Positions 55,166 to 64,000 of a stretch of 64,000 nucleotides of DNA are shown piece after piece (the first letter of the stretch is position 1; every line of letters begins with the position of its first letter). The DNA lies in assembly GCF_000016785.1 (NCBI RefSeq), contig NC_009486.1, forward strand, positions 1,302,001-1,366,000. The letters run 5' to 3'. The translations under genes and the position numbers were made by a program. This DNA comes from Thermotoga petrophila RKU-1. GTDB lineage: Bacteria; Thermotogota; Thermotogae; Thermotogales; Thermotogaceae. Below the pieces are notes generated by a model, which was not told where the DNA came from, did not search any database, and was given only the letters and a program-made list of their open reading frames with translations.

Positions 55166-60094
<4,929 letters not shown>

Positions 60095-61234
60095 CTAACA
60101 GTATTGAACGTTCACTATTTTTCCCCTTTCTCGAAGGATCTGAGCGATATCCTTGACCAGTCTGAACTTCAAAGAGATATCGTGGCTGAACAGAGGATTC
60201 TGATGAGCCGGGTTTATTGCCCTTCCAACGAAGAAGTTGATTTCATCGGCCTCCAGAAGACTTTTGACGATGAATTTTGCACCGTACCCCAGTTCGTCCG
60301 ATTGCCCTTCGAGGTACCTGAACACCTGAGTCAGGGTGACGATTCCTTCCGTCATGAGATCGATTCCTTCCATGTATCCAACAGGCGGAGAGTTTTCCGA
60401 GAGGGTGTACAGATCGATCTCAACTTTCTTTCCTGTAACCCTTTCAAAGATCTGACCTGTTGTTCCTCCGCAAACGATCTTTTTTCCAGGAAGGCTGAGA
60501 AACGTTCTCACGTACTCTTCGTCTTTTTTTCTGTCCTCAGGTGGTCCGACGAACAGATTCAGAATGCGCTTTTCTCGGAAATTCAAGCAAGCAACGAGTG
60601 TATCATCCCCTCTCACTTCTTGGTCCAGTTTTTCTGCGAGCTTTACAAAGTGCCTGACGATGTTTTCGGGAGAAACGTGGTTTTTCAGAAGATGCTTCAT
60701 CTCTTTTTCTATGTTTTCCACACCGAAACCCAGTGGAAAAAGATCCGTTCCCATTCCCGCCTGAGAGAGTCCATCCGTTGCCAGAAAGAGTAGAGTTCCA
60801 GCTTCAGGTTGAAACTGCCATACGAACACTTTTTTTCCTTCTATCTCGAGTTCCAGCTTCTCAGGAAAGACCCTTCTTTCTCCTTTGAACAGCATCACAA
60901 CCGGAAACTCGTATTCGACGACGGTGCAGGTATTGTTTTTGAAGTCGCACACCACGGAGCACAAATTGGAGTAGCTGATTTTTCTTACTCTGCAAATGGG
61001 GAGTGTCGCGAGGATCGTTCTGAACACATCTGCTACAGGAAGACCTTTTATCAGCATCGTGGAGGCTATGGTTGATGTGAGAGTTGAGAGAATACTCGCT
61101 TTTATCCCGCTTCCCAGTCCGTCGGAAATGCTGACCACTATTTTTTCACTTTCTCTCTTGACTTTTATCGAGTCTCCACACACCTCTTCGCCTTTTTTGT
61201 TCTTCGAGGCAAAAAAGACATCACAGGTCAGCAT
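60095..61234 (-). CDS. SpoIIE/PP2C-type phosphatase in the hydrogenase operon
   Basis: A 379-residue protein. The N-terminal ~215 residues look like a SpoIIE-type PP2C domain: EVCGDSIKVKRESEKIVVSI, SDGLGSGIKASILS and the later RGDDTLVACLN carry the metal-binding aspartates. The C-terminal ~160 residues (GPPEDRKKDEEYVRTFLSLP, CGGTTGQIFERV) form a second domain that I do not recognise. It overlaps hydS by 14 bases. Inference: it relays the HydS signal by dephosphorylating a partner. Confidence 0.85.
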   Translation of the reverse strand: MLTCDVFFASKNKKGEEVCGDSIKVKRESEKIVVSISDGLGSGIKASILSTLTSTIASTMLIKGLPVADVFRTILATLPICRVRKISYSNLCSVVCDFKNNTCTVVEYEFPVVMLFKGERRVFPEKLELEIEGKKVFVWQFQPEAGTLLFLATDGLSQAGMGTDLFPLGFGVENIEKEMKHLLKNHVSPENIVRHFVKLAEKLDQEVRGDDTLVACLNFREKRILNLFVGPPEDRKKDEEYVRTFLSLPGKKIVCGGTTGQIFERVTGKKVEIDLYTLSENSPPVGYMEGIDLMTEGIVTLTQVFRYLEGQSDELGYGAKFIVKSLLEADEINFFVGRAINPAHQNPLFSHDISLKFRLVKDIAQILRERGKIVNVQYC

Positions 61235-62786
61235 TTTCTCCCTCCATGAACCTCTTCAGCTCCATGAAACTGCTCTTGGTTTCCGCGATGGATTCACCGA
61301 GTATCCCAGCAATTTCTTGAGCGATTCTCATTTGTTTGTTCAGCATTTCTTCGACCTTTCTGAGTGTTTCCTTTTTTACCTTGTCGAGCTCTTCGTCTTT
61401 CAGTTTTTCCTGCGTAATATCCACTAGCATGATGACTTCTTCTCCATCCTCGAGAGAAAATTCCTTCACAAAGAAGAATCTCTTCCCTTCGATGTTGAGA
61501 GTTTCTCCCACAGAGCCCTTCGCACATTCCAGGATCCCAGGATCCTTCTGGATCAGTTCCCCAGCTACCCTGTTTCTGTAGATCACTTTTTCGTCTTTCA
61601 AAACGAATACAGCGTTTGGAGATTCTTCAACGACTCTGTAACTGGAAGATTTGACCAGATCAAGCAGGTACACAAAGCACATCTCCTTTTCCGCTTTTCC
61701 AAGGACCACGGCCCTGGCTTTTTCACGGCACGAATCGTATCCACACGCACCGCAGTTCAACTCTTTGGACGGATCGTCTTTTCCTATGGACACGAGAACC
61801 TTTTTTATTTCCTCTTCTGGAACTTCCACGTTCCTGGACTTGTTTCTGTAGCTCCTGAAGGTATCGATCTTGAGGTGATTCACCTTCGGTTCTTTTGGGA
61901 GTTTCTTCTGCCATTCAAGAAGCCTTTCTTTTCCGTTGCTTTTTTTCTTCATCACAGGTCCGTTCAAACAGCTGCCGTAGCATGCGGAAGCCTCTATGAA
62001 AACACTTTTGTATTCATCTATCCTGGAAAAGACTCTCATCAGGTTTTCGATACCTTCAACCACGAGCTTTTTTTCCCATGGGACAGAAACGGTGTAGCCT
62101 ATACCGTCCGTTGTCGGATAAAACCGAGCCCTGTCTGGATACGGACCGTCCGGAAGAGCTTCTTTTCCTTCTCTTTCTTCGAGGATCTCCTCGAGTTCTT
62201 CGAAGGTGAGTGCAACGTCAACGAGGTCGCTTTCGGATTTCTTTGCTATGCATGGTCCAACAAACACAATTGGGAAGTCACCGTATCGTGTCTTCAAAAA
62301 CTTCGCGTGCGCCATCAGAGGAGAATCAACAGGTGCAAAATATTTCAAAACATTAGGAAAATGTTTCTCAGCGAGATTAACAACCACGGGACAGGCAGTT
62401 GTTATGAGGGGACCAGGGTGTTTTTCAAAGACCTCTTCGTACCTTCTGGAAACGATCTCCGCACCCACGGCTGTTTCCTGAACAACCACAGCACCCATCT
62501 CTTTCAAAATACCGATAACTCTCAGAGGATTTTCAAAGTAAGCGAAAAACGACGGTGCTATGGAAACAAGAAACGGTCTGGACAAACTCAGAAATCTTCC
62601 AACGTCTTTCCGATAGCTTCTTGCATTCTGAGGACAGATATCTAAACATAACCCGCAAAAAACACATTCTTCTTCTAAAACTGTTGATTTTCCCGATTTG
62701 AAAGATATGGCTTTAACAGGACAGTTTCTCAAGCACTTGTAGCAGTATCTGCAATCCGTTTCTCTCGAGAATATGAGTTCAGCCAT
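61221..62786 (-). CDS. hydS: Sensory [FeFe]-hydrogenase-like protein HydS
   Basis: A 521-residue protein. Two N-terminal [4Fe-4S] sites (CRYCYKCLRNCPVKA, CVFCGLCLDICPQNA) lead into a small H-cluster domain with TTACPVVVNLAEKHFP, VGPCIAKKSE and EASACYGSCLNGPVM. The four cluster cysteines are kept, but the first, proton-shuttle Cys of TSCCPAW is Ala. A further Fe-S motif (NCGACGYDSCREKA), a PAS domain (EESPNAVFVLKDEKVIYRNR) and a C-terminal coiled segment follow. This is the layout of group C sensory hydrogenases. It overlaps the phosphatase and the small ferredoxin gene. Confidence 0.92.
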   Translation of the reverse strand: MAELIFSRETDCRYCYKCLRNCPVKAISFKSGKSTVLEEECVFCGLCLDICPQNARSYRKDVGRFLSLSRPFLVSIAPSFFAYFENPLRVIGILKEMGAVVVQETAVGAEIVSRRYEEVFEKHPGPLITTACPVVVNLAEKHFPNVLKYFAPVDSPLMAHAKFLKTRYGDFPIVFVGPCIAKKSESDLVDVALTFEELEEILEEREGKEALPDGPYPDRARFYPTTDGIGYTVSVPWEKKLVVEGIENLMRVFSRIDEYKSVFIEASACYGSCLNGPVMKKKSNGKERLLEWQKKLPKEPKVNHLKIDTFRSYRNKSRNVEVPEEEIKKVLVSIGKDDPSKELNCGACGYDSCREKARAVVLGKAEKEMCFVYLLDLVKSSSYRVVEESPNAVFVLKDEKVIYRNRVAGELIQKDPGILECAKGSVGETLNIEGKRFFFVKEFSLEDGEEVIMLVDITQEKLKDEELDKVKKETLRKVEEMLNKQMRIAQEIAGILGESIAETKSSFMELKRFMEGENADL

Positions 62787-63012
62787 TTTGAAGCACCCTC
62801 TTTAGAATTTCCTCAGCATTTTCAGGAGTTACTCTGCTGAACAGTTGTCCATCGATTTCAACGCAGACTCCCTGAGAGCAGTTTCCGAAACACAATGAAC
62901 CGTACAGCTTGAAGTTGTATTTCTTTTGAAGCTCTTGAAATCTCCTGACAACCTCGTAAGATCCCTTCAAATGACAAGAACTCCCCATACATACTCTCAC
63001 AATCATGTCCAT
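62779..63012 (-). CDS. Thioredoxin-like [2Fe-2S] ferredoxin
   Basis: A 77-residue protein with CMGSSCHLKGSYEVVRRFQE and SLCFGNCSQGVCVEIDGQLF, giving four cysteines like the NuoE C-terminal domain and like the ends of HydA and HydB. It is the first gene of the hydrogenase operon and overlaps hydS by 8 bases. Likely an electron carrier for HydS or the hydrogenase. The start could be ATG 63012 or 63006; a TTG at 63024 lies before the AAAGGA ribosome site. Confidence 0.88.
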   Translation of the reverse strand: MDMIVRVCMGSSCHLKGSYEVVRRFQELQKKYNFKLYGSLCFGNCSQGVCVEIDGQLFSRVTPENAEEILKRVLQNG

Positions 63013-63089
63013 CGTTCCTTTCAAATCGTGAACCTTTTCACGTTATATTTTTCACTATTTTTCAGGAGAAGTCAAGGGAGTGATATATG

Positions 63090-63107
63090 TTGTTACCTAC
63101 TTCACAA
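63090..63107. promoter_or_regulatory. Rex-type operator in the hydrogenase-inositol synthase divergent gap
   Basis: TTGTTA-CCTACT-TCACAA fits the Rex consensus TTGTGA-n6-TCACAA with one difference in the left arm. It lies about 80 bases upstream of the first hydrogenase-operon gene, and the operon ends with rex. A second A/T-rich half-palindrome TTGTAAACAA follows at 63111-63120. Binding is inferred, not shown. Confidence 0.6.
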
Positions 63108-63180
63108 GTTTTGTAAACAAACTGATTCACTAAAAAGAAAACTATTGGTAAAGCACTTGAAATATATGACTGTAAAAACG

Positions 63181-63189
63181 TGATATAAT
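63181..63189 (+). promoter_or_regulatory. Extended -10 promoter for inositol-1-phosphate synthase
   Basis: TGATATAAT is a TGn extension with a perfect TATAAT at 63184-63189, about 85 bases before the ATG. TTGAAA at 63157-63162 is 21 bases upstream, too far for a normal spacer. The resulting leader holds nothing else that I recognise. Confidence 0.6.
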
Positions 63190-63273: not shown

Positions 63274-64000
63274 ATGGTCAAGGTCCTGATCCTCGGACAG
63301 GGCTACGTTGCCAGTACATTTGTTGCTGGACTTGAAAAGCTCAGGAAAGGGGAAATAGAACCTTACGGAGTGCCCCTTGCAAGGGAACTTCCCATCGACT
63401 TTAAAGACATCAAGATTGTGGGAAGCTACGACGTGGACAGAGCGAAGATTGGAAAGAAACTGAGCGAAGTGGTGAAGCAGTACTGGAACGATGTTGACTC
63501 GCTGACGAGTGATCCTGAGATTCGCAAAGGAGTACACCTTGGAAGCGTGAGGAACCTCCCCATCGAAGCTGAAGGTCTCGAAGACAGCATGACTCTGAAG
63601 GAAGCGGTTGACACTCTTGTCAAGGAATGGACAGAACTCGATCCCGATGTGATCGTGAACACCTGTACCACGGAGGCTTTCATACCCTTCGGGAACAAAG
63701 AAGATCTTCTGAAAGCTATCGAAAACAACGACAAAGAGAGACTCACTGCAACTCAGGTGTACGCTTACGCGGCGGCTCTGTACGCGAACAAGCGTGGAGG
63801 GGCGGCTTTTGTGAACGTTATTCCGACCTTCATAGCGAACGACCCGGCTTTCGTTGAGCTCGCGAAAGAGAACAGCCTCGTCGTTTTCGGAGACGACGGT
63901 GCTACCGGTGCCACACCGTTCACAGCGGACGTTCTCAGCCATCTTGCCCAGAGAAACAGGTACGTCAAAGATGTTGCGCAGTTCAACATAGGAGGAAACA
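63274..64000 (+). CDS. myo-Inositol-1-phosphate synthase (partial, 5' part)
   Basis: The frame from ATG 63274 (after AAGGAGGTGAAA) is open to the window end, 242 residues. It begins MVKVLILGQGYVASTFVAGL (Rossmann NAD motif), with GSYDVDRAKIGKKLSEVVKQ, VNTCTTEAFIPFG, AFVNVIPTFIANDPAF and GDDGATGATPFTADVLSHLA, characteristic of MIPS. In Thermotoga it supplies the di-myo-inositol phosphate compatible solute. The C-terminal catalytic part is outside the window. Confidence 0.93.
   Translation, partial: MVKVLILGQGYVASTFVAGLEKLRKGEIEPYGVPLARELPIDFKDIKIVGSYDVDRAKIGKKLSEVVKQYWNDVDSLTSDPEIRKGVHLGSVRNLPIEAEGLEDSMTLKEAVDTLVKEWTELDPDVIVNTCTTEAFIPFGNKEDLLKAIENNDKERLTATQVYAYAAALYANKRGGAAFVNVIPTFIANDPAFVELAKENSLVVFGDDGATGATPFTADVLSHLAQRNRYVKDVAQFNIGGN

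Follow-up and report, generated by a model that had tools for sequence, protein, structure and literature searches.

A canonical Rex operator and a conserved double Rex-type operator upstream of the Thermotoga hydrogenase operon

Which Rex protein reads a Rex-type palindrome lying in the gap between two divergent genes, and for which of them, is the question raised by a locus of Thermotoga petrophila RKU-1. The window analysed here is a 64,000-nucleotide stretch (positions 1302001-1366000 of the 1,823,511-base genome), and the palindrome, at 63090-63107 of the window, separates a minus-strand hydrogenase operon (from about 63012) from the plus-strand gene for inositol-1-phosphate synthase, ino1 (63274-64000, ATG at 63274, continuing past the window end). 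The operon encodes, all on the minus strand, a small thioredoxin-like [2Fe-2S] protein (first gene, the TM1420 counterpart, 62779-63012), a HydS-like sensory [FeFe] hydrogenase domain protein (61221-62786), a SpoIIE-type phosphatase domain protein (60095-61234), the NuoE-like HydC (59597-60091), the NuoF-like HydB (57724-59604), the catalytic [FeFe] hydrogenase subunit HydA (55773-57731) and, as its final gene, a Rex protein that we call Rex2 (the TM1427 counterpart, 55166-55783). TM numbers denote T. maritima counterparts, some of which are presumed by us. The others follow the available text of PMC3561251. Throughout, Thermotoga stands for genus g1, with seven genomes including that of the window, and G-numbers designate members of the 61-genome comparison set.

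The sequence at 63090-63107, TTGTTACCTACTTCACAA, is the sole exact match to TTGTTA-n6-TCACAA within the window, where nine matches with at most two mismatches compare with 6.7 expected by chance, and the exact form occurs only twice in the genome, the other copy preceding, by about 50 bp, a gene for an iron-containing alcohol dehydrogenase. All 12 half-site bases are identical in the seven Thermotoga genomes and the six-base spacer is variable; this combination of genomic rarity and half-site identity around a varying spacer argues that the site is more than a chance palindrome. The 18-bp palindrome also fits the degenerate Rex pattern TTGTKA-n6-TMACAA, which has three exact matches in the genome and 35 with at most one mismatch, versus 15 for a reversed control pattern, so that perhaps half of these 35 sites are due to chance. 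Among the genes whose families were checked, sites of this pattern precede those for iron alcohol dehydrogenase and glycerol dehydrogenase, lie 66 bp upstream of the HydF maturase gene and, with one mismatch, 30 bp ahead of a gene for a class V aminotransferase (L225, genome position 1376997), a kind of target that the accessible part of a study of Caldicellulosiruptor bescii also reports for Rex (PMC6391272). The 22-bp operator of the T. maritima Rex1 crystal, published for TM0201, is matched exactly at genome position 727962, where another [FeFe] hydrogenase gene begins. Alcohol and glycerol dehydrogenases, HydF and [FeFe] hydrogenases are all kinds of targets reported for Rex. Overlap with a mechanical reading frame of at least 80 amino acids says little about any of these sites, since it is found for 31 of the 35, including the reported site and that of the alcohol dehydrogenase. 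On these grounds the sequence supports 63090-63107 as a canonical Rex operator that forms part of the hydrogenase promoter region, with the hydrogenase operon as its likely target. The earlier note, which had proposed a Rex-type TTGTTA-n6-TCACAA in the divergent gap, thus described a genuine and canonical element: it is conserved in the other Thermotoga strains, and a genome scan with its degenerate form recovers known kinds of Rex targets.

A Rex DNA-binding domain model detects two rex genes in the genome, one encoding Rex1, of the TM0169 type (genome positions 767149-767739), and the other being the rex2 gene that ends the hydrogenase operon. Rex2 was called in 37 of the 61 genomes (E up to 9.2e-50; next best match, 2.2e-34). 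It scores 305.9 bits against the curated Rex model NF003996 (cut-off 138), its predicted structure has a pLDDT of 91.2, and every one of its 39 best structure matches is a Rex-family chain, so that the modelled protein falls within the Rex family, with a winged helix and a Rossmann fold. The predicted fold is that of T. maritima Rex1 (TmRex1) as described in the available parts of the reports on the TmRex1-NAD+-DNA complex (7WB3, PMC8836258) and the TmRex1 NAD(H) structures (PMC6125430).

The gap also holds a second element, 32 bp from the reported site, that was absent from the earlier note and is conserved more widely. This 32-bp box (63026-63057, minus strand; TAGTGA-n6-TAACGT / ACGTGA-n6-TCACGA) consists of two 18-bp Rex-type palindromes, at 63040-63057 and 63026-63043, which overlap by 4 bp and have their centres 14 bp apart. 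A consensus common to many Thermotogales, TCGTGAAA-n3-ATAACG(T/A)TA-n4-TTTCACGA, is found upstream of hydrogenase genes. A simple scan had marked 63027-63042 as a terminator-like hairpin, which we read instead as the operator palindrome.

With at most three mismatches, the box occurs in 27 of the 61 genomes, at a single place in each, versus none of 61 for the reversed control. All 27 genomes are among the 37 that encode Rex2, and none of the 24 without Rex2 carries the box. For the ten Rex2 genomes with no box at this threshold, a looser half-site pattern recovered it in G023, G024 and G025 and marginally in G042, placed it only before rex1 in G015, and found no box in G031, G035, G036 or G041; G043 has a match with five mismatches (contig L181). 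The box also follows the genes when the operon is split: where hydCBA-rex2 stands apart from the hydS unit, it precedes hydC in G037, G038 and G040 (no mismatches) and in G025 (two), and in G023 it lies between the hydS unit and the hydCBA-rex2 unit. Eleven named contigs from Thermotogota and Dictyoglomus (L176-L186, overlapping with genomes of the comparison set) contain the box at up to five mismatches in seven cases, the region before the hydrogenase genes being cut off in the other four; in the Dictyoglomus contig L184, the Rex2 gene ends a hydCBA operon.

Rex2 relatives were also sought more widely. An Acidobacteriota contig (L187) has a rex2 gene adjoining hydC-hydB, and about 70 bp upstream of it, at 714-745, lies a 32-bp palindrome with the same double layout and different half-sites. 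No 18-bp palindromes with G-T-G/T-A cores were found between -400 bp and +2.1 kb of the rex start at any of 16 loci of the Lacrimispora group and Acidobacteriota, at six of which the wing itself was examined. One such non-Thermotogota Rex gene, in L189, has no hydrogenase gene next to it; it neighbours queA and genes for an ATPase, a LysR regulator and an iron alcohol dehydrogenase. The viral contigs searched yielded no Rex2 relatives.

Rex2 is most likely the reader of the box, judging from this distribution and from the residues discussed below. The association could be indirect: HydB orthologues (at least 72% identity) are present in 36 genomes, namely 35 of the 37 with Rex2 and G044, a 60% complete genome in which HydB is present and Rex2 was not found, and this nearly complete co-inheritance of Rex2 with hydCBA cannot alone show that Rex2 reads the box. 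In genus g12, G035 (L180, L209) and G031 (L207), one of whose contigs is titled Thermosipho, retain rex2, and no hydB orthologue of at least 72% identity was found in them. Alternatively, Rex1 or some unrelated regulator could read the box, whose geometry is of the Rex type and whose G-T-G/T-A cores Rex1 could recognise. Against such a reader, 23 of the 24 genomes without Rex2 (all except G045) have Rex1-type genes and none has the box, although these genomes mostly lack hydCBA too; in addition, base 2 of the box differs from that of most canonical sites (though in the first half-site it is C in just 13 of 25 boxes, A in seven and T in five), and the wing residues of the two proteins differ at the matching position. 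We regard a reader other than Rex2 as unlikely, though deserving some weight.

The residues were compared in 30 Rex2 proteins (those of the 37 with loci given) and 21 Rex1 proteins (the window's own and 20 chosen). Every protein of both groups keeps Arg48 and Lys49, and the complete Arg48-Lys49-Asp50 recognition motif is present in 30 of 30 Rex2. The wing, in contrast, separates the paralogues completely, with Arg60-Gly61 in 21 of 21 Rex1 versus Pro60-Lys/Arg61 in 30 of 30 Rex2 (GKPRVGY in the protein encoded here). In the TmRex1-DNA structure, the minor-groove partners of Arg60 and Gly61 are O2 of Thy4 (half-site base 2) and O2 of Thy3 (base 1); the accessible text of that report calls Arg60 both conserved and an exception (PMC8836258). 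Since cytosine also carries an O2 atom, the link between the changed wing and the T-to-C change in the box is suggestive only. The cofactor site has changed as well. The Gly-x-Gly-x-x-Gly P-loop for NAD comprises residues 89-94 in the available text of PMC6125430. The Thermotoga Rex2 proteins read GANDLA (as in the window), GVNDLA or GTDDLA, having lost glycines 91 and 94, two of the three, in six of six and thereby departing from TmRex1 in this respect too; the loop is partly lost in the Rex2 of G010 (GANFLG) and intact in the other 23 of the 30. Loss of two of the three glycines makes NADH sensing through Thermotoga Rex2 doubtful. At the column of Tyr100, the residue that stacks on the nicotinamide in TmRex1 according to the accessible literature, the six Thermotoga proteins have gaps in one alignment and Leu, Gln or (G004) Tyr in another, a disagreement from which we draw no conclusion; the final version of the second alignment omits L077 and a row in the wrong frame, L083.

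These comparisons bear on the earlier suggestion that the operon's own Rex is the NADH sensor bound at 63090-63107, with feedback on its own operon as the result. The retained recognition motif would allow it, as would the TTGTGA half that begins five of the 25 Rex2 boxes and a site in G010 that is a hybrid of both types (see below). Yet the residues that contact bases 1 and 2 are changed in every Rex2 examined, it is the 32-bp box that goes with Rex2 across the order, the P-loop is broken in Thermotoga, and the site is intact in a Thermotoga genome whose rex2 is itself broken (G003), albeit by a recent loss. The suggestion is not supported and we consider it unlikely; by sequence, 63090-63107 appears to fit canonical Rex1 better than Rex2.

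The placement of both elements was next related to predicted promoters. The best candidate for the hydrogenase operon, a weak consensus match at 63047-63075 on the minus strand, combines TTGACT (63075-63070) with AAAAAT (63052-63047) over a 17-bp spacer, its second hexamer falling inside the double operator; it scores 9 of 12 in Thermotoga, a value reached by 20-28 of 200 shuffles. Twenty-six loci were compared, among them G035, which has only a degenerate box. In 13 of them, the best predicted -10 hexamer stops 2-4 bp short of the box and the promoter scores 9-11 of 12, although for G030 and G014 shuffles do as well; three more loci share this position with weak scores. The hexamer lies within the box in seven, six of them Thermotoga and the seventh G010, and elsewhere near the box start in G024, G026 and G028. 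Relative to these predicted hexamers, the box is where a repressor sits.

The canonical site lies just upstream of the predicted -35 hexamer, and exactly 32 bp separate it from the double operator in all six Thermotoga genomes that have both and in G010, a member of a different genus of the family that is devoid of ino1. The upstream site of G010 matches 11 of the 12 half-site bases and is a hybrid, TTGTGA...TAACGA; this site, together with the one TCGTGA half in the canonical-type site before the glycerol dehydrogenase gene, suggests that the specificities of Rex1 and Rex2 may overlap. In genus g9, also without ino1, the distance to the double operator is 61-63 bp in all five genomes, for a site that matches 10-11 of the 12 half-site bases, and G024 has a full 12 of 12 match 119 bp from its box; at the remaining 13 of the 26 loci, the search for an upstream canonical site gave nothing better than shuffles. 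An estimate based on the hexamers places the predicted hydrogenase start about 58 bp downstream of the centre of the reported site. For the site, a position upstream of the -35 hexamer, at a spacing strictly kept in Thermotoga and G010, would suit activation or anti-repression of the hydrogenase promoter by a Rex bound there. We find this very doubtful, as the accessible parts of PMC6125430, PMC8836258 and PMC6391272 present Rex as a repressor and the hydrogenase start is itself predicted.

There remains the gene on the other side of the gap. The earlier note had considered the site common to the hydrogenase operon and ino1, linking the NADH state to a compatible-solute gene. The hydrogenase part of this proposal is upheld by the conserved position of the site in the promoter region; for the ino1 part, Rex control through 63090-63107 is possible but unsupported. 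If Rex1 bound there controlled both units and coupled NADH to osmolyte synthesis, the presence of the site beside ino1 in all seven Thermotoga would be expected, and so might a Rex match before ino1 elsewhere. The only other clear ino1 in the comparison set, in G055 (G013 has a weak match, probably due to chance), is indeed preceded, 45 bp from the start codon, by a site matching 10 of 12 bases, but 43 of 500 shuffles reach this score over 500 bp, and 23 of 500 over the last 150 bp. A like site at equal spacing from the double operator exists without ino1 in G010, as do the weaker ones in g9, and about 97 bp separate the predicted ino1 start from the centre of the reported site upstream of it. 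The latter estimate is based on a plus-strand -10 hexamer, TATAAT at 63184-63189, with a TG one base before it (extended -10); a search of the main text of a start-site paper (PMC3636130) for the relevant terms found neither ino1 nor the hydrogenase gene.

The Thermotoga genome G003 seemed to offer a natural experiment. It has lost the hydrogenase operon, retaining hydA and rex2 fragments between ino1 and a chemotaxis gene (L168, 6744-10035), and it keeps the site intact beside ino1, with 12 of 12 half-site bases identical, whereas the flanks have 20-21 of 60 identical columns on the left and 8-11 of 35 on the right. We examined this survival as proof of a role for ino1 and rejected it: the identities of the rex2 remnant at the three codon positions (0.87, 0.90 and 0.49) are like those of working genes. 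Because the remnant is barely more diverged than such genes, the loss must be recent, and survival of the site is uninformative on selection; furthermore, in G003 the site stands about 13 bp closer to the ino1 -10 hexamer. The site without ino1 in G010, the distance of about 97 bp and the uninformative deletion leave the ino1 role without positive support, and an operator shared in this way strikes us as decidedly unlikely. In the same intergenic region, a 42-bp block that ends with the ino1 -10 hexamer (63148-63189) is identical at 33-38 of 42 positions between G003 and four other Thermotoga; it is perhaps conserved beyond what a promoter needs, and another regulator may act there.

Taken together, the arrangement most plausibly provides two Rex inputs, a reading based on sequence comparison in which we place moderate confidence. 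The double operator, overlapping the promoter, would be bound by two Rex2 dimers, and because Rex2 comes from the last gene of the operon, this binding would amount to negative autoregulation. Rex1, the canonical NADH sensor, would bind 63090-63107 and tie hydrogenase expression to the NADH/NAD+ ratio, while ino1 would be a bystander served by its own promoter. Directly observed are the sites, how they are conserved and spaced, and the two paralogues with the residues that distinguish them; the pairing of each Rex with its site, repression, the two dimers on the box and the independence of ino1 are what we infer from them. A more speculative extension, which we hold to be quite improbable, is that Thermotoga Rex2 no longer senses NADH and is switched by HydS and the SpoIIE-type phosphatase, so that hydrogen-sensing control would act through the cooperative double operator and Rex1 would keep NADH control upstream.

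Rex control of this operon has probably been published. The available parts of PMC8836258 and PMC3750489 cite a Rex regulon of 12 operons and 40 genes, including those of hydrogen production, described for T. maritima by Ravcheev et al. (2012), and the operon is likely to be among its members; that regulon shares with the present locus the operator motif, the organism group and the regulation of hydrogen-production genes. Later papers on Thermotoga Rex name TM0169 or give no locus tag in their accessible text. A literature search that covered few subscription papers found no report of a double Rex operator or of its assignment to Rex2, no paper on a second Rex and none for TM1427. The accessible account of Caldicellulosiruptor bescii describes one Rex (PMC6391272), whereas here a second, divergent Rex ends the hydrogenase operon and a double operator precedes it.

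Biological hydrogen production has a model in the electron-bifurcating hydrogenase of Thermotoga; the available text of PMC10055695 calls the role of the HydS encoded with it unclear, while assuming that it regulates expression. With a Rex paralogue dedicated to the operon and a double operator of its own, alongside an input from Rex1, the question of what HydS does would become one for a direct binding test; if Rex2 were indeed switched by HydS and the phosphatase, the missing output of HydS would be supplied. The neighbouring double operator and the divergent Rex2 are a more interesting object than the site first reported, and the two paralogues offer a natural Rex pair within one cell, in which differences between residues can be compared with differences between sites.
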